A stretch of DNA of 64,000 bases, from the NCBI RefSeq assembly GCF_041381155.1, contig NC_091147.1, forward strand, positions 30,911,349-30,975,348. The letters are read 5' to 3'. Of this stretch, positions 1-26,714 are shown one piece after another. Each line of letters begins with the position of its first letter. The stretch's first letter is position 1. Below the pieces are notes generated by a model. That model searched no databases. It was not told the DNA's origin and saw only the letters and a program-made list of their open reading frames with translations. This DNA is from Argopecten irradians (Eukaryota; Mollusca; Bivalvia; Pectinida; Pectinidae). The translations under genes were made by a program, and so were the position numbers.

Positions 1-548
1 TTTCTAGTATGCCTTTCTTCTCATACTTACTCCGTATTTGCAAAGTACTTAGTTTTCTGCACGACGTCAATTTAGTTCAAAAATAATTATATCACAATGG
101 ATACCTACCCGCAAGTGGTAACTCTCGAATACGGTTAAAATTCATAAGCAATAATGAAAAAATATTATTTGATATTTGAATACTTAATTTTCATTTGTTT
201 TCATAGTAAATCCGACTTTCTGATTGGCAGATACTTTTCCTTCATGTACTATAAAGAAAAAAATCCGAGAATGGCGCGAAAACCCGACGTTATCATGACG
301 TCACAATAGAGACGTCAATGTTACTTATTGTTTTAGAAAAATAATTCATTGGAAAGTCAATGGAATAGTACGTTTAAAGGTGTTTTATGTTATCAAGTAG
401 TCTGAAAAATTAATTTTAAGTATAAATGTAACTATTTTTTAACTTCATAGGGTTATGAAATAAATTTTGTTTGCAAATTTTTGTGAGAATACTTGTCTCG
501 ACCACGAACAAGTTTGTTTACAGTACGTCACGTGGTTATGTTGTGTAG
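1..548. other. Intron of the M13 peptidase gene, no gene seen
   Basis: This AT-rich stretch lies upstream of the first recognisable exon. I see no coding segment or RNA gene. About 85 bp at 240-325 matches, in inverted orientation, a stretch at 14490-14565 (shared core ATCCRAGAATGGCGCGAAAAC, then GACGTTATC and a TGACGTCAC-like motif), so part of it is a dispersed repeat. Confidence 0.6.
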
Positions 549-754
549 GTAGCATCGAAACTCTGGGACTAGATGTCATCAGGCCTCTAGCAGAGGACAT
601 TGGCGGATGGCCTATCCTGGACCCTAACTGGAGCAGTCGCCATTATCAGCTGGAGACCATGCTGGCTGCAGCTAGGAAATACAATGTCGACACGCCTATA
701 ATTAGCCTGAGTGTCGAGTCAGATCCCAGCCTCCCCGAGAAACACATCATACAT
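549..754 (+). CDS. M13 peptidase exon (first in window)
   Basis: It encodes about 68 residues: SIETLGLDVIRPLAEDIGGWP, then ILDPNW and, at the end, PEKHIIH. IGGWP is the typical M13 motif near the start of the ectodomain. The donor at 755 is GTATGT and the exon ends in phase 0, which fits the next exon exactly. The acceptor is less certain: AG at 547-548 gives a start at 549, while AG at 551-552 would give 553. The upstream pyrimidine tract is poor. Confidence 0.88.
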
Positions 755-3700
755 GTATGTATAGCTTAAAGATGCTCCGCCGCCGACAAATGGTATTGTT
801 TCACTATCAAAAACAGGAGCAGACGATTTAGTATTTTTCTTCAGTTACAAAAGTTACTTACTTTACACTATTACCACCATTGAAAAGTTTGAGCTTCTAA
901 TTTTACTTAAAGTTAAATATACGAAAAATAATTAATTGCATCCCGAAAAAATTCCGTGGCACTATATCTTATATGGAATGAAGTAATGATTGCGCATGCA
1001 CCAAAGGCGAAATAAATTATTTTATGTTATTTTTTGTGTTAATTAGACATATAGATACACGATTAAACACCAATTATTGTTCAAGTGATGAATATCATTT
1101 ATCAGGTCAGAGAAATCACTATATTTGGAAATAAACACGCAATCACGTGATCACTAGTTACCCATAATACAACTTCATATTTCGGCCAATGGCATGAATG
1201 AGGTATAAGCACGTGACTCGTTTTACTACGTTTTTACTACAAAAACCCACGTGTTTTGTACCATTTGGGGGAATATCCCCCGCGGATCGTGGTTTCATTT
1301 CCAAAGTTGGGAAACAGATTGAATTTCATAAAGATATATTTGCATTTATCTTTTCACCGAAGCGTTTTGTATATTAAGACATAACGAATTTTTCATTACG
1401 GTTTTAATGGCCGTGTACTATTAATATTGGTTCAATCTTTGGGTTAAAATCCTCCCGGAACGTGATTATATCTCGAAAGTCGGGAACCACATTGAATTTC
1501 ATAAATATGTATTTGCATCTATCTTTTCACCGAGGCGTTTTTTATGCAATGGCCTAACGAATTTGTAATTACGGCTTTCATGTATTATGTACATATACCA
1601 AAATGTACATGCATATAAATAACAGTTCAAAGTGCACGTGTTCAACAATCAAGTTTGATAGTTCAACATATAGAGTGAAAATCCCCCCAGGAAGTGATTT
1701 TACCTCCGAAATCGAGACCAGATTGACTAAGATTTCTGTGGGTACACATCCATTTTTTAGCATGGATTTTGTATAAATAGCAATCAACGGAGTAAATTAT
1801 TTCTTTGAAGGATATCAGAATTGCTTTGATTTTGCATTAACAAAAGAATCAACATATATATATGTACCTTCATTTATTGCCTTTTTATTTAGAATCATCA
1901 AATTTTGATACATTTACATGTAAATGTACATGCACATGTATACTCGCGTACCTCGGCAAGAAAGAACAAGAGTAGTGGTGTCGTTGCCTTCCTTACATTC
2001 TCTCTTTTCATTCTGTAAATCCACTCACCTTTCTCACGTAGGTTTGGTGCGCGTGCGACGTAAGATATCGTGAGACCTCGATTTTCATGTTTTAACGTGA
2101 CTTCTGATTATGTACACGTGTTATAACGTAATCCAGGAACATGTGTACGTGTTCATTTGTCAACACATGTGCAGTAAAAGTTGAATTATTAGGGATACAT
2201 ATCGTGAATATAATTTAAAATTGTATAAAAACATTTAGTATCGACAATATCAGTTATGAAAGTTATATCATCCACATGTTACGTGCCAATTTTTTTAAAG
2301 TCTTACTTTTTAAACAGTCATAATAGATAATTACAAAATCCATATGAATAAATATGGTAATATATAGTTTTGTTACAGTTTCAGAACAAAAACTATCGAG
2401 GGTAGTTTTCTCAAACTTGATTAACACGTGTAACTGTTATTCATATACATGTACATGTATGTGTATACATGAAAGCTTCGGTGAAAAGATAAATGCAAAT
2501 ATATATTTCTGAAATTCAATGTGGTTCCCGACTTTGGAGGTAAAACCACGTCCCGGGAGGATTTTCATCCTAAAGATTGAACCAATATTAATAGTACACG
2601 GCCATTTAAACCGTAATGAAAAATTCGTTATGCCTTTATATACAAAACGCTTCGGTGAAAAGATAAATGCAAATATATATTTATGAAATTCAATCTGTTT
2701 CCCAACTTTGGAAATGAAACCACGATCCGCGGGGGATATTCCCCCAAATGGTACAAAACACGTGGTTTTTTGTTGTAAAAACGTAGTAAAACGAGTCACG
2801 TGCTTATACCTCATTCATGCCATTGGTCGAAATATGAAGTTGTATTATGGGTAACTAGTGATCACGTGATTGCGTGTTTATTTCCAAATATAGTGATTTC
2901 TGTGACCTTTTTATGCTCTGTCGGCGGTGGAGCATCTTTAAATAAATCTTCTGAGTGTCAAAATGTACGTATAACTTTAATAAAATCTCCCTGAGTGTCG
3001 AGTCGGATCCCAGTCTCCCTACAATTCAGCCTTAGAGTGCATAAAAGTTGGAGCCATCAAGCACAATTCTCCATAGTTTTATTAACCCTTGCCAGTGGCG
3101 TAGGAAGATGAAACGTCATGGGGGGGCAAAGGTCCTCAATATTTTGTAACACCCCCCCCCCCCCCCCCCCCCCGCCACACCTACAGGAGGAGATTAATTC
3201 AACTCCCAACCATATAATATATGCTTTATGTTCATTTTTCATATATCACTAAATTTAATCCTTGTACACATTTATAGACAGTGGGGTCGCTAAAAGGAAA
3301 TTAACGAATACGCAAATTGGCCGAATTAGTGTGTGAGCGTCGAAGGCGGTGACCCTTTTGGTGTTTTATTAGGGTCTGACGGTGACCCCCCGGGATTAGT
3401 TTTATGTATTTTGATGATTTTGCGATAGCCCGACAGCGCAAGATTTTGGTGTTTGGGGGGTCCGGGGGTCTCCCCCGGGAAAAAATTACGATTTAGAATG
3501 GCTTAGATGATTTTTACGATGCATTTTGATGAATTTGCGAGCGCCCAAAGGCGTGAGAATTTGGTGTTAGGGGGGTCCGGGGGTCTCCCCCGGGAAAAAA
3601 ATACGATTTAGAATGGCTGAGATGAGTTTTACGATGCATTTTGATGAATTTGCGAGCGCCCAAAGGCGCGAGAATTTGGTGTTAGTGGGGTCCGGGGGTC

Positions 3701-4183
3701 TCCCCCGGGGAAAAAAATACGATTTAGAATGGCTGAGATGAGTTTTACGATAAAGTTTAATGATTATAAAGCGATCTTAACATGGTAATTTTTCGATTTA
3801 AAGCTACCTGCATTTAGAAATGATAATTGTGTCGTCATAACATTATGCAACCCTACTCGATCTGAATATAACGGCTTCACACCATCGGCACATTGTTGTG
3901 TAACATAAAAAAAATGAATTAATTGTCCCGCTAAGACATATGAACAAATTGATCTTTTAAGAGACATTTTTTTTAATAGCACATAGAATCCCTTGATGGA
4001 CATTTTTAGTCTAGTTTGTGTGTATTGAATTTTCACTATTTAAGGTTTGACATTATGTGCTTGAACGTTTTAGGAAATGCGCCGCGCAGCGGATAATTTT
4101 CTAGAATGAAGTACGAAAAATGTGTAGGAGGACCCTTTTTTCTTTCAAATAAGCATTTTTAGAAAATTTCAGTCGGCGAAAAT

Positions 4184-4229
<46 letters not shown>

Positions 4230-7200
4230 AAAAGACATGTTTGCCCCCCTGTCCTGGGGAACGGGGGGGCAGTTGCCCCCCCCCCCTTCCTACGCCCCTG
4301 CTTGCTTAATTAAAGTTACTAAATCATTAGATTTACATAGATTTCTTAGGGTGTTTGAGTACCTACAAACGTTCTTATACCTGAAATTAGAAAGTTTTCA
4401 AAATTACAACCTTTAATTTGAACTATTGGCAATGTTTATCAACGTTAAAATATCGCCAAACACAACAAGAAACTGTATCTGTCGACATTGACTGTTTACT
4501 ACGGAAAGAACCGGGTGCATCTTTGAGTTCGAAATCGGGGTCGCTGAAAATCTCATCCGGCTAATGGATATAGATGTAATAACACCACTAAGAGGCAACT
4601 TATATTTTATCGGTTACATTGGACTGATTAAGCGTAATAGCCGATACATTTACAGCGTAGCTCAGTGGCGTAGGAAGATGAAACGTAATTGGGGGCGAGG
4701 GGGGGGGGCAAATGTTATCAATATTTGGACCCCCCCTCGCCCCGAACCCACAGGAGGAGAATAATTTTTAATTCAACACACAACTATACTTTATAAACTT
4801 TTTTCATATATCGTTAAGTAGAATCCTAGTGCACATTTATAGACAGTGGCGTCGATAAAAGGAAACTAATGAATACGCAAATTGCCATGCGAGCGCCGAA
4901 GGTGCGATATTTTGGTGTTTGGGGGGCCGAGAATCTCCTACGAGAAAAAATATTACGATTTAGAATGGCTAAGATGAGTATAACGATGCATTTTAATGAA
5001 TTTTTGAGCGCCGAAGACGCGAGAATTTGATGTTTGAGGGGTCCGGGGGTCTCCCCCCGGGAAAACTATTACGATTTAGAATTTTACGATGCATTTTGAT
5101 GAATGTGGGAGCGCCTGAAGGCGCGAGATTTGGGTGTTTGATGGGGTCCGAGGGTCTCCCCGGGTAAAAATATTACGATTTAGAATGGCTGTGATGAGTT
5201 TTACGATGTATTTTAATTATTTTAAAGGGTTCTTAACATGATTTTTTTTTATTTAAAGTTACCTTCATTTAGAAATGATAATTGTGAATGCCGTCATATC
5301 ATTATGCAACTCTGCTCGATCTGAACATGCCGGCTTCACACCATCGGCACATTGTTGTTTAACACAAAATAATAATTAATTAATTGTCTTGCTAAGTCAT
5401 ATAAACAAATAAATCTTTTAAGAGGCATTTTTTAAAATAGTACGTAGAATCCCTTGATTGACATTTTTAGTCTAGTTCACGAAAATGTGCAGGAGGACCC
5501 TTTTTTCTTTCAAATGTGCAATTATAAAACATGGGAAGGGGGCAAAAGACATGTTTGCCCCCGTCCTGGGAAACGGGGAGGCAAAAGTACACATAAAATT
5601 TAAATATATAGTTAGGCTGATTTTTTAAGTAAATCAGATGGAAAAAGTTATATAACTAGTGACATTTAGGGGAATGTCCATTAGACGGATAGAGACTATA
5701 ACTAGGTATATATAGCGAATGTCCATTAGACGGATAGACACTATAACTAAGGATATATAGGAAATTTCCATTAGACGGATATATATTATAGCTAGGGCTA
5801 TATGAGGAATGTCCATTAGACGGATAGAGACTATAACTAGAGATATATAGAGAATGTCCATTAGACGGATAGACATTATAACTAAGGATATACAATGTAT
5901 AGGGAATGTCAAATATTGATATAATGATATAAAAAATACTCGTACTTACTTAGTCTGCTAAACATGCCTATATTATAAGTTTTTTTCCCATTTTTCCCTT
6001 ATTACAAAGTCTATATATTAGGCCAATCATTTTAAAAGCCTAATAATATTGGCAGGTTTAGCGGAATAATACCTAATATCATGACAAATGAAAATAAAAT
6101 AATGGTAAAAGAAAGCATAAAACCATATAATATAATGAAAAATCTTCTTTATGGCTGCAAAAACCTGTACAGTATAGGATTATTTACACTTAGAAACTCT
6201 TCACAAAACTTCTGCATACGTTTCAACGTTTATTAGATTAACACAGTAAACAGGAACCTGTAGTCGATAAATTTGTGTTTTCAGTCGATAGCAGATATGT
6301 CCATTAGACAGATTTCCTTCGATCGAATGTTTTGAATGTTTACGCGTCGCGCATGCACATAGGGGTTGTTTACACTCGCCGAAAGATAATAATATGAAAT
6401 AGTGACTAGGTCGTTTCTATTTATTTTCCGTTTTTCTTCATTCTGAACAAAATCGTTATACAAACTTTTAAATTTTGTTATTAACACAAAGTACACAACT
6501 TTTACAATTATTTTTAGTTTTATAATTATTTTCATCTTTTATCACATGAATCTTTAACAATTTAGTCCCTTTAATTGTATAGATATACTATTTAGAATGT
6601 TAACAATATCGCAAAATTTGTCATAAGGTTTTGTAGAACAATAGTTTGATGCCATGTTTTGCTTCGTAGTTACGAAACAACTAAATTTGTGTCCATGTAA
6701 CATAAGGTAAAAGCACGAAACTCAATCTACTCAAATTAAATTTTTAACGTTGTTCTCAATAGATTTGCGTTTATGAAATCATACACAATATACGGACGGA
6801 CATTCTTTTTAGACGCTTCGTATTTATGCAGACTGTCTTTTCATTTTTTGTCTGTGACTTCCTCAACCAAAAAAAAAATTTGCTTAAACATTTTTCCAGA
6901 TAGAACAGCCTCACTTAGGACTACCTGACCGGAACCTTTTCCTCACCGAGAACAAGGCATACGCCGCCTATGTGACTTACATGCTCGAGGTCTTCAAGGC
7001 GTTTGGGGCGAATCAATCAACAGTATCAAATGACGTCAAGGACATGGTCGTGTTTGAGACACAACTGGCGAAGGTATGGACAATGGAATAACTGTCTCTA
7101 TAACGTTTTGTGACGTCATTTTAGGATTCAATTATAAAAGATCATGATGTCATTAATGACATCACTAAAACAATGATATACTGGCTTTACGAAGATACAT

Positions 7201-10200
7201 TCGATCACAAAGATTTACATTATTGTGGTAGTTAATAAATATCTTATTTCAACGACGAAACTGCTTCAGAGGTGAACTTTGAGAAGGTAAATGTACCTAA
7301 ATGTTACACAGAACGTGTTTTTTTACATCAATATTACAGTTAGAATCTTTTGCAATGAAAACTTCAGGAATGAAGGAGACATTCATGCAAATGATTGACT
7401 AATGTCTATATGACTTTAATCATAATAATGACGTCATTTCCGAAAATTTTTGAAAGTACAGAAGTTTGTTATATGTGTCATTTGAACTGCATGCGATAAA
7501 CTGCATCTATAGATACATACCAATCAAATTGTATTGATGTATATGACCGAATTATTTACAATTGATATCTTGACCTTTATGGGTTTTATGAAGTCGGGAC
7601 ATGTTTTCTGTATGTAAGTTGTATGTTGATAGTTAACACAAAACGTGGAGGAGCACCATGACCACAGCCAGGACCAACGACTGACCATTGACCAACTACA
7701 GCACATGTTCCCCGGGGTAGGTACTATGTATACTGGCCATTGACCAACTACAGCACATGTTCCCCGGGGTAGGTACTATGTATACTGACCATTGACCAAC
7801 TACAGCACATGTTCCCCGGGGTAGGTACTATGTATACTGATCATTGACCAACTACAGCACATGTTCCCCGGGGTAGGTACTATGTATACTGAGTATTGAC
7901 CAACTACAGCACATGTTCCCCGGGGTAGGTACTTTGTATACTGAACATTGACCAACTACAGCACATGTTCCCCGGGGAAGGTACTATGTATACTGACCAT
8001 TGACCAACTACAGCACATGTTCCCCGGGGTAGGTACTATGTATACTGACCATTGACCAACTACAGCACATGATCCCGGGGTAGGTACTTTGTATACTGAC
8101 CATTGACCAACTACAGCACATGTTCCCCGGGGTAGGTACTATGTATACTGACCATTGACCAACTACAGCACATGTTCCCCGGGGTAGGTACTTTGTATAC
8201 TGACCATTGACCAACTACAGCACATGTTCCCCGGAGTAGGTACTTTGTATACTGACCATTGACCAACTACAGCACATGTTCCCCGGGGTAGGTACTTTGT
8301 ATACTGACCATTGACCAACTACAGCACATGATCCCGGGGTAGGTACTATGTATACTGACCATTGACCAACTACATGTTCCACGGGGTAGGTACTTTGTAT
8401 ACTGACCATTGACCAACTACAGCACATGTTCCCCGGGGTATGTTCTATGTATACTGGCCATTGACCAACTACAGCACATGTTCCACGGGGTAGGTACTTT
8501 GTATACTGACCATTGACCAACTACAGCACATGTTCCCCGGGGTTGGTACTTTGTATACTGACCATTGACCAATTACAGCACATGTTCCCGGGGTAGGTAC
8601 TTTGTATACTGACCATTGACCAACTACAGCACATGTTCCCCGGGGTAGGTACTATGTATCAGTAAAACTTTGACGCTATATAGAGTGTCATACAATGGTT
8701 TCATCAATTTTTTTTTATATAACTTTGTTATCACATTCTGTAACTGACTTCATGTTTCTGTGTTTATTTAAAGCTGGACTGGAAGCAGTATATCTACAAT
8801 ATCTTCAATATGGATCAAGTGAGAATTACCATTCACTCCAATGATGTTGTCCTCCTGAGCAATGCTGAGTACTTCCGGAACGTCTTCAGTCTTCTACAAA
8901 ACACATCGGCACGGTTCGTTAACATCAAATCATTATTTACAATTAACATTATCACAGCGTTTATTAGTATTTAATACTTAAATAACAACGATTGCTTTTT
9001 AACTACCGAGTTTACTCCTAATTTGTTTCTACTACGGAGTTTATTCCTAAATCATTTCTATTAAGGAGTTTGCTCTTAATTCATTTTTTTTCGACGATGA
9101 AGTAAGGGATATAAACACTTTATTATCCTACAGTTTTAGTGTTGTCGGAATGCACCTGCCACGAATATTTTTGCTGCATTGGGCACTGACAAAAAAAACT
9201 GTATTTTAGAATTTCAACAATAAGTCATAACAGTGTATTCAGATAAAATAAGGTGAAGAAATAATTGTTATTTTTGTTGTTCACTGGAGTATGAACGCCT
9301 TTTTGACGAATTATTTCAAATGACGCCCAACCGGTTTTTGATAACTGTACCTTTAACAATTAGATTGTTAATTGTTTGACGCTGTACGCAAGGTTTGAAC
9401 ATGTCTGGAACTGACTGAATAATGTAAGAGTCGATCCCTATTTTACAGGGAATTGTTTTACAATGACGGCGTCTTTTTATCCGGTGCCTATCAGATATTT
9501 CAAACATGAGTTAATTTTCAAGAGTTCAAATTAAGATGCAAAAGATGTATAATTATTTGCCGAATCAGTGCCTTGATCTCATTCAACGTCAATGTATTTG
9601 TACGCGTCAAAGTGTGGTTCATTTAAGTATTAAACGTTTGTCAGTTGGCATTCATAGCCAAAATGAATGCCAACGGGACAGAGGCAAATTTCATGAAGCG
9701 CGCTAGTAAGCTTACATAGTGGGACTGCAGTGAAAATGTAAATATACAAAAATGAACCCCGAATTCGTTGGTAACGTTATATTGCAAAGACACAATGGAA
9801 ATGTATACTACTGTTTATTGAGATAAATGTATGCTTTATTCAAATATGTTAGTCTGTAGTTTTTATACACAGTAAATATTACGATTTGCCTGTATTATTG
9901 TGAGATACTGTTTTTACTTGTAGGGCGGAAGCTAATTATATCAACTGGATGTTATTACAAGATTTGATAATGACGTTACCAGCGAAAATCAGACAACTTC
10001 ACCAGACTTTTACGCAGGTATAGAACTCAAAATAGCAGTTATGATATTTAAAGATTAAAATGTATTTCAAAGAAATGAAAATTATTAAATGTTACGTTTG
10101 CTATAGTAATAAACTAGGTATTTTTTAGGTTCATCCCTATTGATGATCTTTATAATGTTGCATTTCGTTCTAATTAATTTCATAAAAGGGAGAGCCAATT

Positions 10201-13200
10201 TCGTACGGCATGGTATCTATCTACGTTCGATCACCATCGTCATTTCAAATTCTGTATTCGGCACATGATGTATGTATTTGTAGATTTGTCTGAAAAAAAT
10301 CTGTTGCAAAATTATGTTTTATTACAGCTATATTTATTTTACTTAGACTCAAAACTCAGTTTATGACTGTCTACTTTTTTGGAGAAATATAATGTACTTT
10401 ACCTTTTGTATTTTGTATGCAAAAAAAAGTGTTTTATCCATTGTATTTTGTATCGAAACAAAGTATTTTCTGTAGGCATTACCAGACGCTACTCCTGAAA
10501 GTCCCCGATGGCAGCAGTGTGTTGATGAGACTAACAAGGCTTTCAGTTTGGCTGTGGCCCGCCTGTTTGTAGACCAGCATTTCGACACAGCATCCAAACT
10601 AGAGGTTAGTTTTATTGTTATAGGAAAGAGAGGCCGAAAATACGGCAAACCCTTTAAATAGCTAAAACTTCTGAGAAAATTACAAGCTGAATATGGCTGA
10701 TATCAAGCAACTACTTAAAATATACCAAGTAGCATATTTAAATTGTGGAATAAATACATTTTACAGCTCTACTCCGTAGAAAAGCAAAACTACAAATATT
10801 GCAAATGTTATACATGTAAGAAGTTTCGCTTTTCATAGTAGGTGGAAGAAATCTTTTGCGCTTCAGACATGTTAATCTGCCTTAACTTTGTCAGGTATCA
10901 AACTAAGACTACACAAAGACTACATTTTAATGTGTCAAACAGAAAACTATTTTCGTGATTAGATCCGTACCCGCATGTAATACCCGCTGTGAGACGATGG
11001 ATTTTGTATTTAATACATTTTATAATAAAACATTAAATTTAATTCTCCAAAATAAAGTGGTATTATACATGTTTTATTCAGGTTCAAGACATGTTTGCCA
11101 AAACGAAGTCGTCAATGCGGAACATTCTTCAACGAGAAACCTGGATGGACTTAGCAACAAGAACATTTGCCTTAGAAAAGGTATGAGGTCTACAGAGGAA
11201 TAAAATACAGCTGAAGAAGCAAGAAATGTAGAGTAAACACCGTTATACCTGCTGTTATTCGTGGGACATCATTTCCGCGCACATAAATATCCCCAAAACA
11301 ATGAAAACGATAACTGTATCAATGAGGAGATATAGTATTCCTTTTTCTTTCATACCTACACGTGTAATACTGGCTGGTCTAGGGCAATACACTCATGTCG
11401 CCTGAGGCTGTATTGCATGGCTACCCATGCAATAAAGCCTCGTGACGTCACGGCGTCAACAAAATCTCTATTCCTCGGTAAAATTTTAACATTTTTTTCA
11501 CAAAATTGACTGGTTTTACTATAAAAGATGCAAGCAACGGAATTTGTGTTGAAAATATCACGTAATTTTTCATGTATGGAAATTGACTTCCAGTCGTGGA
11601 TTTCTTCGAATTTATTTCAAAATGGCGGGATATTATAGTTGTAAAATTGCAGTAAAACGTCGCGGTATGAAAGAAAAATACTCGGGATCACAAAATGTTG
11701 CAAAACCCTCGGCAAGCCTCGGGTTTTACTACATTTTGTGACCCTCGGGTATAATATCCCTATCCTTCATATCCACATATGAAAGAGTCTTATAGGAATT
11801 AGTATCAATAAAGAGATATTGAATTCCCCGCGAATTAGTATCCATGAGAAGATATCGAATTCCCCGCAAATTCCCCACGAATTAGTATCCATGAGGAGAA
11901 ATCGAATTATCCGCGATTTAGTATCAATGAGAAGATATGGAATTATCCGCGAATTAGTATCCATGAGGAGATATCGAATTCCCCGCGAATTAGTATCTAT
12001 GAGGAGATATCGAATTCCCCGAGAATTAGTATCAATGAGGCAAGATCCAATTCCACGGGAATGAGTATCAATGAGGAAATATCGGATTCCCCGGAAATTA
12101 GTATCAATGATGAGATATGGAATTATCCGCGAATTAGTATCAATGATGAGATATGGAATTCCCCGGAAATTAGTATCAATGATGAGATATGGAAATCCCC
12201 GGAAATTAGTATCAATGATGAGATATGGAATTTCCCGGAAATTAGTATCAATGATGAGATATGGAATTCCGCGCGAATTAGTATCAATGATGAGATATGG
12301 AATTCCCCTGAAATTAGTATCAATGATGAGATATGGAAATCCCCGGAAATTAGTATCAATGATGAGATATGGAATTCCCCGGAAATTAGTATCAATGATG
12401 ATATATGGAATTTTCCGCGAATTAGTATCAATGATGAGATATGGAATTCCCCGGAAATTAGTATCAATGATGAGATATGGAATTCCGCGCGAATTAGTAT
12501 CAATGATCAGATATGGAATTCCCCGGAAATTAGTATCAATGATGAAATATGGAATTATCCGCGAATTAGTATCAATGATGAGATATGGAATTCCCCGGAA
12601 ATTAGTATCAATGATGAGATATGGAATTCCGCGCGAATTAGTATCAATGATGAGATATGGAATTCCCCGGAAATTAGTATCAATGATGAGATATGGAAAT
12701 CCCCGGAAATTAGTATCAATGATGAGATATGGAATTCCCCGGAAATTAGTATCAATGATGATATATGGAATTCTCCGCGAATTAGTATCAATGATGAGAT
12801 ATGGAATTCCCCGGAAATTAGTATCAATGATGAGATATGGAATTCCGCGCGAATTAGTATCAATGATGAGATATGGAATTCCCCGGAAATTAGTATCAAT
12901 GATGATATATGGAATTCCCCGGAAATTAGTATCAATGATGATATATGGAATTCTCCGCGAATTAGTATCAATGATGAGATATGGAATTTCCCGGAAATTA
13001 GTATCAATGATGAGATATGGAATTCCGCGCGAATTAGTATCAATGATGAGATATGGAATTACCCGGAAATTAGTATCAATGATGAGATATGGAATTCCGC
13101 GCGAATTAGTATCAATGATGAGATATGGAATTCCCCTGAAATTAGTATCAATGATGAGATATGGAATTCCGCGCGAATTAGTATCAATGATGAGATATGG

Positions 13201-14692
13201 AATTCCCCTGAAATTAGTATCAATGATGAGATATGGAATTCCGCACGAATTAGTATCAATGATGAGATATGGAATTCCCCGGAAATTAGTATCAATGCTG
13301 AGATATGGAATTCCCCGCGAATTAGTATCAATGATGAGATATGGAATTCCGCGCGAATTAGTATCAATAATGAGATATCGATGTTTCTCGTCGTGAAATT
13401 CAACTGTAGAGTAACTTACTTTAATATGTTACCATCATTAGTACAAATATGTAGCGAATTTGACAGATTTAATATTTCAGAATTTCCAATGAGTGTAAGA
13501 TGATACAATGTATTTAAAATAAAATGTCGCCTTGATAATTACATTCCAGTTGAACTCACTACAAGCCAGGGTAGGTTACCCAGAGGAGATAAAGAACAAC
13601 ACATACCTAAACAACAGATACCACAGTGTGAGTTCAACCATTTACACTCAGTATCAATAACAAATCATCTGTACATTAAAAGATTGTTTTCTCTCTCTGC
13701 CTTCCGAGTTTACAGAAAGAACCTCAGTGTATGTGACTGTCAAAAATATTAAAGATGCTTCACCGCCGACAAATGTTAATTTTCTCTATCAAAAACAGGA
13801 GCAGACGATTTAGAATTTTTCGTCAGTTACAAAAGTTACTAACTTTACACCGTTACCACCAAGTCTGAGCTTCAAGATAAAAATATTAAAAATAATAAAT
13901 TGAATCCCGAACAAATTCCGTGTCGCTATGTCCTACATGTGCAGTACTGATTGCGCATGCACGGAAAGCAAAAAAAAATAATTAGTGATTGTGTTTGTTA
14001 GACATATACATACACGATTAAACACCAATTATTGTTCATTTGATGGGTATTATTTATGCTCTGTCGGCGGTGGAGCATATTTAACTTTTACTGCATATCA
14101 ATTTGAGTTCAGAGTTCAACTCGATAATTTTAAAAACACATTATATAACTTTATGAAAACATTGCTTTGAAAATAATTATAATCGACGATACAATATAAA
14201 TATTTTATTTATTGGATAACAAACTCATTATAATGTGTATCCACGTACTTATTCTCAATGGTTTCGTTCCAGTACATTATGGATCAAAATATGTATTTCC
14301 AAAATACATTAAATTCTGTGAAAGCTGAGGCAGCCTCTACCCTCCGGGACCTTGTAACGCCAAGCAATGAGTTAGAGTAAGTCAACGTTCTGTCACTGGA
14401 ACATTAGCAAGTCAAGTTTTAGGTTGTCAATCCAAGATTTAAGTTAATGGCTTTTAATATCACATTTTAATCATGCAGAAAATAATAAATAAAAATGTCT
14501 CTATGGTGACATCACGATAACGTCAAGTTGTTTTCGCGCCATTCTTGGATTTTATTGTCAATATGAAAATAAATGACATTGATATAATCAGATTATTACT
14601 TCTAATTATGTTGTTTTATTGTATTTATAGATGGGAAACACCAGCGCCCACTGCAGGAGACGTGTTCTATGATCTAGATCACAACGTGATAG
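549..14692 (+). CDS. M13-family metallopeptidase (neprilysin/ECE-like), partial gene, ten exons
   Basis: The gene is inferred from ten exons: 549-754, 6900-7073, 7633-7716, 8774-8913, 9924-10017, 10476-10604, 11082-11180, 13550-13627, 14273-14376 and 14631-14692. Their joined phases agree throughout and give about 390 residues. M13 enzymes are usually type II membrane ectopeptidases of about 700-780 residues that cleave small extracellular peptides. Family landmarks seen in order are IGGWP, HIIH/IEQPHLGLPDR, FETQLA, LTIDQLQHMFPG, LDWKQYI, RWQQCVDE, TWMDLATR, ARVGYPEE and DVFYDLDHNVI. These match the N-terminal and middle parts of the ectodomain. The membrane anchor lies upstream of the window. 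The HExxH/ExxxD zinc region should come soon after the last exon but is not found on either strand of the window. Intact splice sites and phases favour a live gene. Which M13 paralogue it is cannot be told. Confidence 0.9.
766..2941. mobile_element. TTAA-flanked MITE copy 1, interrupted by a foldback element
   Basis: TTAA at 766-769 and 2938-2941 flanks an element that begins AGATGCTCCGCCGCCGACA and ends TGTCGGCGGTGGAGCATCT, an almost perfect terminal inverted repeat. The MITE body is 770-1103 plus 2909-2937. It is closely related to the uninterrupted copy at 13753-14080. There is no transposase frame, so it is non-autonomous. TTAA target duplication is used by piggyBac and Kolobok elements, among others; I do not assign the superfamily. 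Confidence 0.85.
1104..2908. mobile_element. Foldback-type element nested in MITE copy 1
   Basis: Two long inverted arms, about 1104-1546 and 2464-2908, share a start AGGTCASAGAAATCAC and stay highly similar for about 440 bp. Within each arm a subunit of roughly 175-230 bp recurs, recognisable by a GAATTTCATAAA core and a CTTTTCACCGA core. The centre (about 1547-2463) is AT-rich with no coding signal. Comparison with the uninterrupted MITE at 13753-14080 puts the insertion at a TTTAT stretch, with a possible TTTAT duplication at 1098-1102 and 2910-2914. A transcript through it would form a very long hairpin. Confidence 0.8.
2990..3021 (+). pseudogene. Exon fragment copy from the M13 gene
   Basis: About 30 bp match 706-735, inside the first exon, with only two differences in the aligned core (both read CCTGAGTGTCGAGTC, then GATCCCAG, then CTCCC). 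It lies about 50 bp beyond the end of MITE copy 1 and has no splice sites of its own. It looks like a small captured or duplicated exon piece and not a functional exon. Confidence 0.7.
3093..4300. mobile_element. GC-rich non-autonomous DNA element with hAT-like ends, copy 1
   Basis: The ends CAGTGGCGTAGGAAG and CTTCCTACGCCCCTG are inverted repeats with one mismatch. CTTGC occurs directly outside both ends (3088-3092 and 4301-4305), a possible 5-bp target duplication. The CAGNGGCG terminus resembles hAT elements, whose duplication is usually 8 bp, so the class is tentative. Inside are at least three units of about 115 bp (cores at 3461, 3578 and 3691) containing GTCCGGGGGTCTCCCCCGGG. No transposase is present. 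It also has a 22-C run (3152-3173) and a 44-G run (4184-4227). Confidence 0.75.
4184..4227 (+). repeat. 44-base G homopolymer
   Basis: This is an uninterrupted run of G inside the GC-rich element. A run this long can fold as G-quadruplex, and its exact length is doubtful in any assembly. A 22-C run sits about 1 kb upstream in the same element. Confidence 0.9.
4673..5585. mobile_element. GC-rich non-autonomous DNA element, copy 2 (3' end missing)
   Basis: It starts with the same CAGTGGCGTAGGAAGATGAA terminus as the element at 3093 and runs parallel to it, including the roughly 115-bp internal units, an ATTGTTGT-containing AT-rich segment and the GACATGTTTGCCCCC stretch. It stops at about 5585, before the terminal inverted repeat. 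It lies in the same orientation only 370 bp after copy 1, so this intron holds a tandem pair. Confidence 0.7.
5672..5910. repeat. 46-bp tandem repeat, about five units
   Basis: Five units begin near 5672, 5718, 5764, 5809 and 5855 and share AATGTCCATTAGACGGATAG, then TATAACTA and an AT-rich end. Two overlapping minus-strand frames across it are by-products of the repetition. A lone echo, TGTCCATTAGACAGATT, lies at about 6299-6315. Confidence 0.85.
5911..6899. other. Intron, no gene seen
   Basis: This AT-rich intron sequence leads up to the exon at 6900. A polypyrimidine-like tract ending TTTTTCCAG sits directly before that exon. I see no other feature apart from the echo of the 46-bp repeat at about 6299. 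Confidence 0.6.
6900..7073 (+). CDS. M13 peptidase exon 2 of window
   Basis: 174 bp, phase 0 at both ends, acceptor TTCCAG and donor GTATGG. It encodes 58 residues beginning IEQPHLGLPDRNLFL and ending MVVFETQLAK. The segment resembles the family's HIDQPxLGLPxRDYY motif and the following helix ending in FExxIA. Its first codon continues directly from HIIH of the previous exon. Confidence 0.95.
7074..7632. other. Intron, no gene seen
   Basis: AT-rich intron with TGACGTCAT-like motifs near 7110 and 7430 but no coding content. It ends in the short acceptor GTTGATAG at 7625-7632. Confidence 0.6.
7633..7716 (+). CDS. M13 peptidase exon 3 of window, source of the 52-bp minisatellite
   Basis: 84 bp, 28 residues, phase 0 at both ends. 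It reads LTQNVEEHHDHSQDQ, then RLTIDQLQHMFPG, and fills the gap between FETQLAK and LDWKQYIYNIF as the family alignment requires (compare the YNKMTLAQIQ region of neprilysin). The donor is GTAGGT at 7717. The last 36 bases of the exon plus the donor and about 16 intronic bases form the unit that is amplified downstream. Confidence 0.92.
7681..8660 (+). repeat. Exon- and splice-donor-derived minisatellite, 52-bp unit, about 19 copies
   Basis: The first unit is the 3' end of the exon ending at 7716 together with its donor. Each unit holds CTGACCATTGACCAACTACA, GCACATGTTCCCCGGG and GTAGGTACTATGTATA, with occasional changes such as TTTGTATA, GATCCCGGG or one shortened unit near 8365. Nearly every unit keeps the GG/GTAGGT donor. 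The unit has no acceptor. Because 52 is not a multiple of three, using any downstream donor shifts the frame and meets TGA in the second unit (CAT TGA), so only the first donor preserves the protein. Confidence 0.95.
8774..8913 (+). CDS. M13 peptidase exon 4 of window
   Basis: 140 bp, starting in phase 0 and ending after two bases of a codon. It encodes LDWKQYIYNIFNMDQV, then VVLLSNAEYFRNVFSLLQ and NTSA, matching the family's FSWLNFxN ... VxVYAPEYL region. The acceptor is TTTAAAG and the donor is the weak GTTCGT. Confidence 0.93.
8914..9923. other. Intron with a perfect 12-bp hairpin, no gene seen
   Basis: The only structure noticed is a perfect inverted repeat, GTTGGCATTCAT / ATGAATGCCAAC, at 9644-9674 with a 7-base loop. 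The rest is AT-rich intron ending in a pyrimidine-rich TTTTTACTTGTAG acceptor. Confidence 0.6.
9924..10017 (+). CDS. M13 peptidase exon 5 of window
   Basis: 94 bp. Its first base completes an arginine codon begun in the previous exon, followed by AEANYINWMLLQDLIMTLP, then AKIRQLHQTFTQ. This is the conserved LMSWRFIMDLVSSL-like helix of M13 enzymes. The donor is GTATAG. Confidence 0.93.
10018..10475. other. Intron, no gene seen
   Basis: AT-rich intron. Nothing beyond the splice signals is recognised. Confidence 0.6.
10476..10604 (+). CDS. M13 peptidase exon 6 of window
   Basis: 129 bp, 43 residues, phase 0. It contains SPRWQQCVDETNKAFSLAVA, then RLFVDQHF, equivalent to the family's TWRRCxxYVNxNMxxAVGRLYV motif, including the conserved Trp and Cys. 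The donor is GTTAGT. Confidence 0.95.
10605..11081. other. Intron, no gene seen
   Basis: AT-rich intron without recognisable features other than the acceptor TTTTATTCAG. Confidence 0.6.
11082..11180 (+). CDS. M13 peptidase exon 7 of window
   Basis: 99 bp, 33 residues, phase 0. It reads VQDMFAKTKSSMRNILQRE, then TWMDLATRTFALEK, matching the family's region around TWMDxxTKxxAxxKA. The donor is GTATGA. Confidence 0.95.
11181..11792. mobile_element. Intron with remnants of a palindromic DNA element
   Basis: About 11385-11470 holds a short palindromic stretch (GGCTGTATTGCATGG / CCATGCAATAAAGCC) and a CGTGACGTCACG motif. About 11675-11792 holds an imperfect palindrome (CTCGGGATCACAAAATGT ... CATTTTGTGACCCTCGGG), then CATATGAAAGAGTCTTA. 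The same ending occurs in the palindrome at 14997-15152, so this is probably a related non-autonomous element. Its left border is not certain. Confidence 0.5.
11793..13385. repeat. 36-bp minisatellite, about 44 units
   Basis: The unit is GAATTAGTATCAATGATGAG plus ATATGGAATTCCCCG. Units up to about 12060 are more diverged (ATCCATGAGGAGATATCG variants); the rest are very uniform. Two unit types, ending CCCCGGAAATT or CCGCGCGAATT, alternate irregularly, giving a partial 72-bp higher order. Since 36 is divisible by three, long frames open on both strands, including a 480-codon frame at 12061-13503 repeating ISINDEIWNSPE. The array lies wholly inside an intron and shows no codon-level constraint, so I do not call a gene. 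Confidence 0.93.
13550..13627 (+). CDS. M13 peptidase exon 8 of window
   Basis: 78 bp, 26 residues, phase 0. It reads LNSLQARVGYPEEIKNNTYL, then NNRYHS, and matches the family's ERIGYPDxIxxxxxLxxxY motif. The acceptor is ACATTCCAG and the donor is the good GTGAGT. It begins about 165 bp after the 36-bp array. Confidence 0.95.
13749..14084. mobile_element. TTAA-flanked MITE, copy 2 (uninterrupted)
   Basis: TTAA at 13749-13752 and 14081-14084 flanks a 328-bp element beginning AGATGCTTCACCGCCGACA and ending TGTCGGCGGTGGAGCATAT. The body aligns along its length with the two parts of the copy at 770-1103 and 2909-2937, including CAAAAACAGGAGCAGACGAT and GATTGCGCATGCAC. It has no coding capacity. 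It serves as the empty site that defines the foldback insertion. Confidence 0.88.
14273..14376 (+). CDS. M13 peptidase exon 9 of window
   Basis: 104 bp, phase 0 start, ending after two bases of a Glu codon. It encodes YIMDQNMYFQNTLNSVKAEA, then ASTLRDLVTPSNELE, the helical stretch that precedes the family's W-x(5-8)-VNAFY motif. The donor is GTAAGT, the best among this gene's donors. Confidence 0.93.
14377..14630. repeat. Short intron carrying an inverted dispersed repeat
   Basis: Positions 14490-14565 are the reverse complement of a sequence at about 240-325, with GAYGTCAC, GATAACGTC and TTTTCGCGCCATTCTTGGAT shared. It is probably a remnant of another small dispersed element. Confidence 0.6.
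14631..14692 (+). CDS. M13 peptidase exon 10 of window (last one found)
   Basis: 62 bp. The first base completes Glu, followed by WETPAPTAGDVFYDLDHNVI and one base of the next codon, which begins with G. It corresponds to the WxxxxxxVNAFYxxxxNxIxFPAG block of the family. The donor GTATGC follows at 14693. The next exon should encode the FPAGILQ-like motif and then the HExxH zinc site; neither is found downstream in this window. Confidence 0.92.
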
Positions 14693-14900
14693 GTATGCTC
14701 AGAATCACTAACACAGTCATTTGGTGGGTAGAAAACGGGAATGGATCATTTTGTGTTAATGTTTACATACCGGTATTTCCTTCCAAGGGAAATAGCTTTT
14801 ATGAGTCTGTAGGAATATATTATATATGACATTTGTAGTGGCTTAAAGTACCTTATTTTTATCTGAAATAATGGTCATTGTTTAAGTGAAAACAGTAAAA

Positions 14901-14993
14901 ATTAATCTGGTATCTTACAATGCTTGGTAAGTGTCTAAAACAAATCAATCTGTTATCTTACAATGCTTGGTAAGTGTTTACAAACAAATTAAT
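14901..14993 (+). repeat. 44-bp tandem repeat, segment 1
   Basis: Two units of ATTAATCTGGTATCTTACAA / TGCTTGGTAAGTGTTTACAAACAA. Each carries TTG/GTAAGT, a full match to the intronic part of the 5' splice-site consensus. The array resumes at 16341 after an inserted element. Confidence 0.85.
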
Positions 14994-16340
14994 ATAAGAC
15001 TCTTTCATATCTACACATGGAGGATAGGGGTATTCCACCCGAGGGGTCAGAAAATGTGGTAAAACCCGAGGCTTGCCGATGGTTTTACCACATTTTCTGA
15101 CCCCGAGGGTGGAATATCCCCTATCCTCTATGTGTACATATGAAAGAGTCTTTTTCTCTCATATCGTTACCAAATTTCCGTTAAAATACCTGCCGGTCCA
15201 TCATTTTACTTCATTTTTTCCGATTTTTTATTACATAATTTTATGCTAAAACAATAAGATATCCTTGAAAAGCATACCCGTTTTTGGCAAACTGAAAGTT
15301 TGCGGACAAAATAAGATCCTTTTGTTGTATCTTATCTGGGTGAATGTATAATTCTCTGAAAAATATTTCGTGGCCTGACCGACTTTTTTCCTGTACCCGA
15401 TCACATGGTACACGTTTGCGTACATCCGCGAAATATATAGCGCCAATGTACAAAACAAAAAAACAATCAAAGAGAAAAGATTGATTTTGTGTGGCACATG
15501 TATTTCAGTTCTAACTACAACATTGTTGTCATTTTGAAGAAACGTAGCGGTAATTTTCACTGTTTTGTCACTTCAGTCAAAGCACTGCGTCATACGTGAC
15601 GTCACGACTTTCGTCGGAATTCCATTCATATATTGGCGGTCAAGGCTACTCCTAGTCGCTCTCGATCACCATGATCAGAAGATGTTTTGATTTTGGAGCT
15701 TGTTTTGTTGTATCAACATTTTTTACAGTTGTTCATATGGGATCCAGCGAACATGATTTCGATACGAGTGTCCGACCTTTGTTGTGATACAGGATTGTAC
15801 GTATTTAAACGTGATTCTTGTTTAGAAGCGAAGCGGAGGACTGTTCTCGCTCAGATGGTAGGCTAATCGTACGTTAACTATAGTATGGGGTTTTCATGTT
15901 CGACAGCAAGTTTGAAATCATAAATTTGTGTCTATCATTCAGAGTTCTATAATCATTTAGCGATTGTGTGTGTTGTCAGTAAGTTAACAGAAACATGCAT
16001 GCTACAGTAAGGGACATGATAGTCGGTCATTTTTGGACTTAGGCCTAACCGGATGACGTGACACAGGGGCACGCAACATATTCATTAATGATTACGCGTA
16101 GTAGATATGCATGTACGTCATATTCTAATAGGATACGATGCACGCATGATCAAAATATTATATATATTAACAGCATTTACGTGCCCCTGTGCAACAGGTA
16201 GGCCTAGATGGCATATTTCAACAGTTGTCTCCATGTAACACAAATTAATCCGCGCGCGTGAAATGCCATGTAAGATAGATTTATCTTACATAGCTATCTT
16301 ACATGGGCAAACTCTATATAACATAGCCTGATATGAGAGA
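14994..16340. mobile_element. 1.35-kb element inserted in the 44-bp array, with a 155-bp palindromic left end
   Basis: The 44-bp array breaks at about 14993 and resumes in register at about 16341, which defines the insertion. The duplicated target is AT or AAT at most. The left end is a near-perfect palindrome at 14997-15152: AAGACTCTTTCATAT ... ATATGAAAGAGTCTT, with arms containing CCCGAGGGGTCAGAAAATGT. The right end, GATATGAGAGA, is weakly inverted relative to the left. A second hairpin, CCATGTAAGATAG / CTATCTTACATGG, lies at 16266-16306. There is no coding frame of note, so it is non-autonomous; the class is not assigned. Confidence 0.65.
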
Positions 16341-16482
16341 ATCTGGTATCTTACAATGCTTGGTAAGTGTTTACAAACAAATTAATCTGGTATCTTACAA
16401 TGCTTGGTAAGTGTTTACAAACAAATTAATCTGGTATCTTACAATGCTTGGTTATTATGTACAAACAAATTAATCTGGTATC
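16341..16482 (+). repeat. 44-bp tandem repeat, segment 2
   Basis: Just over three units in register with segment 1. Two keep GGTAAGTG; one has GGTTATTATG at that position. The last unit is broken after TATC by the LTR element and resumes with TATC at 22069. Confidence 0.9.
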
Positions 16483-17298
16483 TGTCATAGAGAAATTTGA
16501 GATGTTCTTTGTTGTTATATAATTGTATATTTTACCTATAGATGTGTTGACAAGTTTAAAATCTACCCTAAGGCATTGTGGTCTTATTTTTGTGGAGTGA
16601 CCGACAATTACATATAGTATTCACATGTCAAAGTGTTTATAACCTTCCTTGAGGCAATGGTGTCATTGATAAGCTTAAGTAGATATATTTCATATCAAAC
16701 TGCCGATATATTTTCAAGTCGTTTAATTGTGATAATATCTTTATGCTATTGATCTTGATTACATCCGGGTTTACCTATCGGACAATGGTCATTTTATTAT
16801 AAAAACCCATGCCTGATTTATGAACATCAGTTGGATTTCCAACCTTCAAGGCGGTCACTACGGATATTTCTTGGATTACCAGATAGTGAACTGTGTGTGA
16901 ACATTATTCAAATTCGGAACTTTTATAAGGTGGATCGCCATCTACGGACAACTTATTCGGTGTCTACATATTGGATTACCAATACGAGTGAACTTTCATT
17001 TTATTTCTATGTAATGTGCCACATATGTTTGATATATGAGAAAGAAATACAATACAAGAGAAAAGCAAATTCCACTTGAATTCTTCGTTTTGTGTCCTGC
17101 AATTTATATAATTACCAACGGTCCGAACTGAACTTGAAAACAACACACATTTTCTTTATTAAAATTGGTGAGAGAATTCGGAGTAACTTGCCACAGGTAA
17201 GCCAAGTTACGCACAAGATCCCCGGGAACCTCAGCGAGACCCCAACCTTGGAGCACCAAGACAAGTACTGTTGCCACAAATCTGCTCCGCATTCAACA

Positions 17299-18267
17299 AT
17301 GGATACCACATACCGAAACGAAATGTCGTACCAAAGAGCATTCCCCACAACGACACGAACAACGTTTCTACCAAATCTACCTTTCAACCGAAGATGGACA
17401 CGTTCTACTGACGAAGCCTGTCAAACAACGGCTACAAGGCACCAGGGACCCCCTATGTCATCTAACAGCCCAACATCGTCGCCTCGGAATCAGTGTTTTA
17501 GATGTGGTAAGTGGGTATTCCATTGTTTTCAAGAGCACGTTAATATCTCTTGTCAGGCAAAATCAGCCCAATGTTTCAAATGTGGCAAATTAGGACATTT
17601 TTCACGGGCTTGTTTTTCAAAGCGCCCAATTTCGGACCAATCAAACCAAAATCATAAATCAAAAAGTAAATTTCACAAAAGCAGGGACGCAAAACGCATG
17701 TCAGAGTTCATCTTACGAAAATCAATCGTATATGCATTTCCATTTTCGGACCTTTCTGACTCAGAGTTCACCAAAATAAACAAAAGAAATCAAATTCAAG
17801 TGCAAATTTTAACACCGATCAAAAGCAACAATGGCACAAATGAAAACGAGCTGGAAATTAAAGAGCTCAAAATCACCAATGAAAATCTTGAAGCGGAAAA
17901 TGAACGCTTAAAATCAGAGCTGAACGAGAATCAAACTTATACCAATGAGCTAAGAGTCAGCTTTGCAGAAACTTTTAATTTGTACCAGAGTGAACATGAG
18001 CGTTTAAAACGGGAGAATGCATTTTTTTTAAAAAGAAACGACGATAAATCTGGTCAAATAGTTCGTCTTGAAAAAGACATCACAAAATACAAGGAAACAA
18101 TCGCTAATCTTGAAAGCAAGATTCAGAATTTTGAAAGAGAAACTTCGCTTGTAAATTCTCAAACCTCTCGACAAAATTGTCAAAATTACGCACCTCCCAA
18201 TCATAACCAACCATTTCGGCCAAATCGAAGACGAGGAAATTTTGGAAATCAATTCGGCTATTCTTAA
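17299..18267 (+). CDS. Gag-like protein of the LTR element
   Basis: An open frame of 322 codons from the ATG at 17299, which is in a good initiation context (ACAATGG). The same frame is also open upstream into the LTR. A CCHC zinc knuckle (C-x2-C-x4-H-x4-C) lies at 17572-17613 within CFKCGKLGHFSRAC, preceded by another cysteine-rich stretch from 17494. Residues about 180-285 are rich in Glu, Lys, Asn and Leu in heptad-like order (NENLEAENERLKSELNENQ), which suggests a coiled coil. The C-terminus is Asn/Arg/Pro-rich. Zinc knuckles in Gag nucleocapsid domains bind element RNA. I infer a structural, RNA-binding role that would need a partner element's enzymes. Confidence 0.7.
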   Translation: MDTTYRNEMSYQRAFPTTTRTTFLPNLPFNRRWTRSTDEACQTTATRHQGPPMSSNSPTSSPRNQCFRCGKWVFHCFQEHVNISCQAKSAQCFKCGKLGHFSRACFSKRPISDQSNQNHKSKSKFHKSRDAKRMSEFILRKSIVYAFPFSDLSDSEFTKINKRNQIQVQILTPIKSNNGTNENELEIKELKITNENLEAENERLKSELNENQTYTNELRVSFAETFNLYQSEHERLKRENAFFLKRNDDKSGQIVRLEKDITKYKETIANLESKIQNFERETSLVNSQTSRQNCQNYAPPNHNQPFRPNRRRGNFGNQFGYS

Positions 18268-18716
18268 ATTTTTAGCGGTTTTTCTTAACCCATGCTTAAG
18301 CTAATTTTACTTCTAGATTTGAAGAAGTTAATGAAATTCAATGACAGTCTCTTGAAAACAACAGTATCCACTTTTATTATATGTGTGTTAATTTGATGGA
18401 CAATCTACTGAATGAACGTTATAAAGTTGTGAAAAGCCTCTAGGTGTATTTAGATTATCAACACTGACTTGTTTAACAAATAATTTAGACTCTGGGACAG
18501 AGTCTTCCTGAGCGAGAAGGAAGTTGTCATAGAGAAATTTGAGATGTTCTTTGTTGTTATATAATTGTATATTTTACCTATAGATGTGTTGACAAGTTTA
18601 AAATCTACCCTAAGGCATTGTGGTCTTATTTTTGTGGAGTGACCGACAATTACATATAGTATTCACATGTCAAAGTGTTTATAACCTTCCTTGAGGCAAT
18701 GGTGTCATTGATAAGC

Positions 18717-21580: not shown

Positions 21581-22072
21581 GTAGATATATTTCATATCAA
21601 ACTGCCGATATATTATCAAGTCGTTTAATTGTGATAATATCTTTATGCTATTGATCTTGATTACATCCGGGTTTACCTATCGGACAATGGTCATTTTATT
21701 ATAAAAACCCATGCCTGATTTATGAACATCAGTTGGATTTCCAACCTTCAAGGCGGTCACTACGGATATTTCTTGGATTACCAGATAGTGAACTGTGTGT
21801 GAATATTATTCAAATTCAGAACTTTATAAGGTGGATCGCCATCTACGGACAACTTATTCGGTGTCTACATATTGGATTACCAATACGAGTGAACTTTCAT
21901 TTTATTTCTATGTAATGTGCCACATATGTTTGATATAATTATGAGAAAGAAATACAATACAAGAGAAAAACAAATTCCACATGAATTCTTCGTTTTGTGT
22001 CCTGCAATTTATATAATTACCAACGGTCCGAACTGAACTTGAAAACAACACACATTTTCTTTATTAAATATC

Positions 22073-25000: not shown

Positions 25001-26590
25001 AATACTGTGATGTGCCTGCAGCCATTATGTAAGTAAAAAAATATGAGAACATACATTACAGATGTATATCATTAGGCCTTTCATGTGTAAAAAATATTTG
25101 TTACTTTCATACCATTTTCAATGATATCAGTTCAGAAAAAAACAGAAAACAAGTTTTCATTCTTTTCTAATACCCTAACCTAGTATCGATTGATATCGGT
25201 AATGTAAACAATAAATGAATCATTAAGTGATATGTAAGTAAACATTGTACATGTGTGGAGGGGCTGATGGGGAATATCGGTAATGTAAACATTTTAAACT
25301 ATAGAATAAGTGATTTTAACACATTGTTAATATATTGCATTTGATAATTCGATTTATAATTAAGTAAAACAATAAATGTACTTACATTTAGAATGTACCT
25401 TATTTACTGCCATTCGATGAATATCTTGGTAAGAATAACTTGTTAATAAGACTGTAAGATATTCTGAACCAGTGTCGATGATATCGGTAAGTAAACAATA
25501 GAGGTTTTAGTGAAATTCGATGATAAGACAGGGTCATTTTAAAACTGTATCACAAAAATTCATGACTGTCGTAAATTATCAGCATGATCATTCTTTAACG
25601 TTCCAGGGCAGCTGTCAAGTTTATAATCTTGAGCTCACTGCCCAACTGCAAGTTGGTCTGTCCGTCTATTCACCAGTCAGTTTGCTATTAAGTATTAATT
25701 AGGCCTAAAGTTCCACGATAAACTAAATCTTGGTGTTTCATGTTTATCTTTCTTCTAGTGTCACATTACAAGTGCACTGACTCTATATTATTCTCCTAAT
25801 GACGGTTGAAAGACGTCACTCTCACCACACACATGAAAACTCGACCGACATTGTTTACATTTAGCCATTGCATTCGCCGATATACGATATGTCGTAAAAT
25901 GATACTATTCTTCACTAAAACTATAAATAAACACTCGTGACTTCATGGAAACATCATATTTAGTTTCTTTTTAATCGGTAAAACCTTAATAACCAAAAAT
26001 ATTTTAAAAATTGGTTTACGTACCATAGAAATGTTACTAAAGAGTTAACGTCCCTTTGTTCACGTCAAAATCCTCACCAGAAAACTACCTTAAGTAGATG
26101 ATATTTCATATCAAACTGCCGATATATTATCAAGTCGTTTAATTGTGATAATATCTTTATGCTATTGATCTTGATTACATCGGGTTTACCTATCGGACAA
26201 TGTCATTTCATTTTATTATAAAAACCCATGCCTGATTTATGAACATCAGTTGGATTTCCAACCTTCAAAGGCGGTCACTACGGATATTTCTTGGATTACC
26301 AGATAGTGAACTGTGTGTGAATATTATTCAAATTCAGAACTTTATAAGGTGGATCGCCATCTACGGACAACTTATTCGGTGTCTACATATTGGATTACCA
26401 ATACGAGTGAACTTTCATTTTATTTCTATGTAATGTGCCACATATGTTTGATATAATTATGAGAAAGAAATACAATACAAGAGAAAAACAAATTCCACAT
26501 GAATTCTTCGTTTTGTGTCCTGCAATTTATATAATTACCAACGGTCCGAACTGAACTTGAAAACAACACACATTTTCTTTATTAAATATC
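22073..26590 (+). mobile_element. Second, scrambled copy of the LTR-element block
   Basis: In order and orientation, this region follows 17310-22068: the internal part of the LTR element (about 22130-22990), LTR sequence (about 23160-23364), the same TTAA-flanked DNA element (23365-26089) and the remaining LTR part (26090-26590). The last kilobase or so is nearly identical to the first copy. The rest is patchily altered, with short words typical of the adjacent 40-bp satellite (GATATCGGTAAGTAAACAAT, TACCATTCGATGATATC) replacing or interrupting the original. It is degraded, with many breaks. A consensus blend made during assembly is more likely than ordinary decay. Confidence 0.7.
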
Positions 26591-26714
26591 TTACAATGCT
26601 TGGTTATTATGTACAAACAAATCAATCTGATATCTTACAATGCTTGGTAAGTGTTTACAAACAAATTAATCTGGTATCTTACAATGCTTGGTTATTATGT
26701 ACAAACAAATCAAT
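26590..26714 (+). repeat. 44-bp tandem repeat, segment 3
   Basis: About three units follow the LTR end as at 22069, again with alternating GGTAAGTG and GGTTATTATG forms. They pass into the 40-bp satellite through a mixed zone that extends to about 27110. Confidence 0.8.

Follow-up and report, generated by a model that had tools for sequence, protein, structure and literature searches.

A 52-bp minisatellite across an exon/intron border of a neprilysin-like gene in the bay scallop, Argopecten irradians

A minisatellite of 52-bp units, arranged head-to-tail over 980 bp, crosses the 3' border of a short coding exon in the window, i.e. the whole 64-kb stretch of DNA that was analysed. The sequence places this array almost certainly in a bay scallop gene that encodes a neprilysin-like enzyme. 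The array is probably a neutral minisatellite that began at the exon/intron border, with the first splice donor mainly used and the other donors at most leaky. The structure of the gene and of the array, the reading frame after each donor, and published systems of comparable layout are described below, together with four alternative explanations.

The neprilysin-like gene and its 52-bp array

Ten exons, designated A to J, were joined into a model of 389 stop-free codons. The model matched PF05649 (M13 N-terminal domain) with 250.6 bits and an E value of 4.4e-74, and solved neprilysin chains matched at E 1.3e-42, with residues 3-386 of the model aligned. An annotated A. irradians protein, 'neprilysin-4-like', was identical to the model in 276 of 276 aligned residues, a match that spans the C/D junction formed with donor 1; this protein comes from a database model, and frame alone would lead a gene caller to donor 1. 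The 'neprilysin-1-like' protein of Pecten maximus showed 70% identity over 201 residues, and in it FPG is followed directly by LDWKQ, as in the exon C/D model.

All exons considered here are on the + strand. Exon B (7633 being the start of the next exon) occupies 6900..7073 and is separated from exon C by an intron of 559 nt. Exon C (7633..7716) has 84 nt and phase 0 at both ends; it reads LTQNVEEHHDHSQDQRLTIDQLQHMFPG and is followed by GTAGGT. Exon D (8774..8913) follows the acceptor ttatttaaag and begins with LDWKQYIYNIF.

TRF delimited the array at 7680-8659 on the + strand (period 52, 19.0 copies, 94% matches), and splitting it by an anchor gave 19 units, 15 of them of 52 nt, three of 51 nt and one of 47 nt. 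The units are 97% identical to the consensus, with one gap of 5 nt and three gaps of 1 nt, and the 19-copy array is plainly non-random. Each unit comprises 37 nt of exon end and 15 nt of intron start; it includes the donor, and the array begins inside the exon. Unit 1 (7680..7731, + strand), which contains the exon end 7680-7716 and the donor GT at 7717-7718, and unit 19 (8608..8659, + strand), both equal the consensus. Since unit 1 matches the other units from 7680 onwards and the array ends at 8659, the founding segment is 7680-7731. Pairwise identity between units averages 94%, with means of 0.94-0.95 at lags 1-9, flat with distance. GT is present in 18 of the 19 units, the exception being unit 6 (GA); GTAGGT occurs in 16/19 and GGG/GTAGGT in 15/19, figures that describe letters and not use.

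The original prediction had described about 19 copies of a 52-bp unit that crosses an exon/intron border, seeded from an M13 peptidase exon, with the donor nearly always retained and the first donor GT at 7717. TRF and the unit split agree with the first part, the retention and the position of the donor were found as claimed, and the exon end is the same in the P. maximus protein. The origin of the unit in the exon end also stood; the start 36 bases within the exon did not, as the exonic part measures 37 nt. The FPG-LDWKQ join shared with P. maximus indicates that the exon predates the array and that the array grew from it.

The catalytic half of the enzyme was searched for in the 64-kb window. 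The motif H-E-[ILVMF]-[TS]-H had no match in the + frames, and a profile of five M13 sequences gave no catalytic-half match in the six frames. Its hits were exons B, D, F, G, and H plus one stretch at chance level (2219-2320, E 6.9). It is a weak profile: exons A, C, E, I, and J escaped it at E 10, and the lack of a catalytic-half match therefore counts for little. If the gene continues, the intron after exon J would be longer than 49 kb; it contains very large satellites. The gene may extend past the window, or it may be partial. Additionally, the P. maximus protein terminates precisely where exon D ends (NTSAR; 8913), and both annotated relatives, from A. irradians and P. maximus, end short of the catalytic half.

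These observations bear on the idea that this copy of the gene is degenerating or incomplete, its splicing immaterial and the array a bystander in a gene being lost, which we consider quite unlikely. The annotated A. irradians protein (306 aa) would agree with decay, as it runs past the end of exon F (10604) into the following intron and ends there; so would the two negative searches and the size and satellite content that the intron after exon J would have. Against it, the ten exons are stop-free throughout and align with neprilysin over nearly their whole length (residues 3-386), while the profile is weak and the remainder of the gene may lie past the window. If the gene is partial, any argument about enzyme dose is pointless.

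Other repeats in the window

The stretch 22363-26641 is a second transposon-like copy of 17627-22123, about 77% identical over the alignment, and is interlaced with fragments of the 40-bp satellite next to it. It contains 236 satellite 7-mers, versus 24 in the sister copy; 100 randomly altered copies had a mean of 21 and a maximum of 35, so the stretch holds about ten times the expectation. It is probably a blended consensus, i.e. an assembly fault, although the interlacing may come from real recombination. A blended stretch is a warning against trusting the repeat numbers of this assembly unreservedly, and this is what speaks for the copy number of the 52-bp array being itself an assembly artefact. 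That explanation is nevertheless very improbable for an array as short (980 bp) and clean (97% to consensus) as this one.

The heptamer GGTAAGT was counted 165 times in the window: 149 times in 27136-34923, 16 times in 14801-27135, and 0 times in 1-14800 and 34924-64000. The consensus units of 40-bp and 44-bp arrays bear this donor-like motif in 27136-34923 and also in 14899-14993, 16340-16483, and 26586-26813. If the intron after exon J crosses these arrays, it has far more donor look-alikes there than are present in the 52-bp array.

Several other repeats were recorded. In a 27.6-kb satellite (34924-62544), a 42-bp unit is repeated about 656 times (TRF: 90% matches, 0% indels); its stop-free frames reach 1151 codons, perhaps only since 42 is divisible by 3. 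Stop-free frames of 551 (+) and 553 (-) codons are found in a 36-bp array of about 44 copies (11795-13378), which adjoins a repeat (11681-11803) that recurs at 14984-15152. An inverted repeat of 437 nt with 95% identity lies at 1104-1539 and 2472-2908, and a shorter sequence at 13.75 kb is related to its outer part (766-1102 and 13749-14057); judged by eye, the inverted repeat and the relative at 13.75 kb are a DNA transposon and its derivative. A direct repeat of 207 nt (16483-16689 and 18525-18729, 98.6%) flanks a 395-codon stop-to-stop frame (17080-18267), in which a zinc-knuckle-like stretch is seen by eye. Together these are perhaps a short LTR-type element.

The chance of overlap between a minisatellite and a splice donor was assessed by random placement of eight seeds with the sizes of the arrays in the first 15 kb; these were hand-picked from TRF, the poly-G run was excluded, and the exon-0 donor at 133 was used. 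At least one of the eight seeds crossed a donor in 28% of 20,000 trials; for exon borders of any kind the figure was 47%. With a donor-crossing seed this frequent and a window rich in minisatellites and satellites, the overlap with a donor is less remarkable.

Reading frame and choice among the donors

Donor 1 (7717) preserves the reading frame and defines an intron of 1057 nt. Past this donor, the exon would be extended by GTA GGT ACT ATG TAT ACT GGC CAT TGA, and the in-frame TGA (7741..7743, + strand) is reached by a transcript from any later donor: V-G-T-M-Y-T-G-H and then TGA is the reading at each of the 18 subsequent unit positions, of which 17 have GT. The original prediction, that the first donor alone is in frame and that the next one runs into TGA, was thus confirmed and applies to every later position. 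Use of the later donors extends exon C to 136-1012 nt and leaves introns of 1005 down to 129 nt, those left by donors 18 and 19 being of 181 and 129 nt. The TGA lies 25 nt upstream of the junction for donor 2 and 77-901 nt upstream for the others, and mRNA from the later donors is presumably degraded, as judged from other animals. Whatever the number of units, donor 1 yields an exon C of 84 nt and the last donor lies 129 nt from exon D.

In the mechanism that we propose, a 52-bp tandem duplication (37 exonic and 15 intronic nt) over the 3' border of exon C was amplified to 19 copies. The spliceosome would mainly pick donor 1 because this donor closes a short exon of 84 nt, and the other 18 copies would be intron for the cell and drift neutrally. 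Rare use of a later donor would give mRNA with an early TGA. The array would be tolerated because the first donor was left intact.

Published minigene experiments bear on this choice. According to the part of the study available, in exon-definition minigenes with two identical strong donors and flanking introns of 365 nt the upstream donor was exclusively used in all constructs tested, and with near-equal donors under exon definition the upstream one was preferred (PMC9225289). The introns concerned here, of 559 nt upstream and 1057 nt after donor 1, would fit this case, and exclusive upstream use would favour 7717 irrespective of unit number. Extracts of the same study also report a stronger preference for the downstream donor when a long upstream intron is combined with a short downstream one, and exon skipping with identical weak donors in larger exons (PMC9225289). 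With the introns shortened to 181 nt by donor 18 and 129 nt by donor 19, donor 19 could compete. In the CBS 844ins68 duplication, which concerns the opposite intron border, the more distal duplicated site was strongly favoured, according to an excerpt of the source (PMC2630376). The layout of the scallop array sets exon-proximal and intron-proximal donors in competition, and dominance of donor 1 is the likeliest outcome.

Two further possible selectors of donor 1 were considered and rejected. The donor of exon C has the strongest U1 pairing among the ten donors of the gene, A to J (-11.4 kcal/mol; others -3.6 to -7.2), and ranks sixth of ten, with 2.7 bits, by a consensus matrix; donor strength was discarded as the selector, the energy of -11.4 kcal/mol being common to 14 of the 18 later units. 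Masking of the inner donors by RNA structure was discarded because it was not robust to the folding setting. With window 200 and span 150, donor 1 was far more open than donors 2-18, a difference equalled by 2 of 150 shuffled-unit arrays; this contrast was gone at 80/40 and smaller at 120/80 and 400/300. As RNA, 196 of 200 shuffles folded as well as five real units or better, and as single-stranded DNA 197 of 200.

The units could also be read as in-frame microexons, in which CACATGTTCCCCGGG, the 15 nt between AG and GT, would add HMFPG and keep the frame. This reading is extremely improbable. A GT and an AG, the sequence features looked for in relation to intron gain, occur in most units. CTACAG or TTACAG stands before CACATG in 18 of 19 units, and upstream of it the consensus carries a TACTGAC stretch, which we take to be a branch-like motif. 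The pyrimidine content before the AG of the units (0.50-0.56) is within the range of the ten acceptors of the gene (0.50-0.75), but the T content (0.25-0.31 in 18/18) is under that of all ten real acceptors (0.38-0.75). Moreover, only 37 nt separate a donor from the AG of the next unit, so that units would need to be skipped.

Known systems of the same layout and meaning of the array

The layout is precedented in human genes (CBS and IFI6), and the scallop array adds a case to it. The 31-bp VNTR of human CBS, at exon 13/intron 13, is designated c.1444_1467+7(16_21) and has substitutions between units, according to the available part of the source (PMC2630376). We read the name as 24 exonic and 7 intronic nt in 16-21 copies. 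Extracts of later papers state that CBS activity is lower with more VNTR units (PMC5188458; table in PMC1395315); the original paper, Lievers 2001, is known through papers that cite it. The scallop array resembles what these sources tell of CBS in that the unit combines an exon end with an intron start and is present in many copies with substitutions between them. It differs in gene and sequence, which are unrelated, and in unit length (31 bp in CBS versus 52 bp). Copy-number polymorphism and an effect on activity are reported for CBS, whereas the scallop array is known from one sequence.

The minisatellite of IFI6 (6-16, G1P3) provides multiple splice donors (Turri et al. 1995, as cited in PMC4526556), and two downstream repeat units act as donors, which results in three mRNA species, as given in an extract of the citing paper (PMC4526556). 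Its minisatellite units thus carry splice donors like those of the scallop, where this refers to sequence alone; unlike in the scallop, where a later donor would bring a TGA, the downstream donors of IFI6 make protein isoforms, as far as that extract describes them.

Tandem repeats at exon-intron boundaries of human segmental duplications alter splicing and can form novel introns, as stated in the accessible part of PMC2812944. These are likewise minisatellite expansions at an exon-intron boundary; they have units of 30 bp on average in 4 copies, in recent human paralogs and with transcript evidence, as against 52 bp and 19 copies in the scallop. A duplication in potato, according to a partial source, is also a tandem duplication over an exon/intron border that supplies splice sites, but it lies over the acceptor border and gave rise to a new intron, whereas the scallop array is at the donor border. 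The length of the intronic ABCA7 VNTR goes with exon skipping; from the available part of the paper, it apparently is no exon-border array (PMC5954066). A literature search for scallop, minisatellite, intron, and splicing together found no paper; among the matches listed, none had both Argopecten irradians and neprilysin, and no printed account of the scallop array was found, in a search outside of which most subscription papers fell.

The CBS effect makes a role of copy number a reasonable idea for the scallop gene. The later donors would then be used appreciably, each giving TGA-bearing mRNA, and more units would mean less functional enzyme. We consider this unlikely. It agrees with the TGA at 7741 being reached from all 18 later unit positions, with the full GGG/GTAGGT donor being common to 15 of 19 units, and, within the available parts of the sources, with the lower activity that accompanies more units in the human CBS VNTR of the same layout (PMC5188458) and with the donor function of downstream IFI6 units (PMC4526556). 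On the other hand, unit number alters neither the 84 nt of exon C nor the 129 nt from the last donor, the upstream donor was exclusive in the exon-definition minigenes of the study quoted in part above (PMC9225289), and the donors are unprotected in the copies. Among the units there are 16 distinct changes, of which four fall in the donor 9-mer (9 of 52 columns), where 2.8 were expected (P(4 or fewer) = 0.87; P(4 or more) = 0.30); one of the four abolishes GT. Each distinct change was counted once in this test and, with 16 changes, weak selection would escape it. The downstream donors are kept only as well as the remainder of the unit, with no sign of selection for the row of donors. We regard as rather improbable the stronger claim that a set of 18 nearly identical GT donors, in 19 units and variable in the germline, tunes unproductive TGA splicing of scallop neprilysin transcripts by unit number, and that the principle of CBS and IFI6 was reached independently in a mollusc.

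Were the later donors used, natural alleles differing in unit number would be a clean test of exon-proximal versus intron-proximal choice among identical donors, and also of whether a VNTR sets enzyme dose outside mammals. If tuning were true, they would form a natural series for the choice of the spliceosome among many equal donors after one acceptor. If donor 1 is mainly used, which we judge to be likelier, a minisatellite may arise in a coding exon harmlessly, given an intact first donor.
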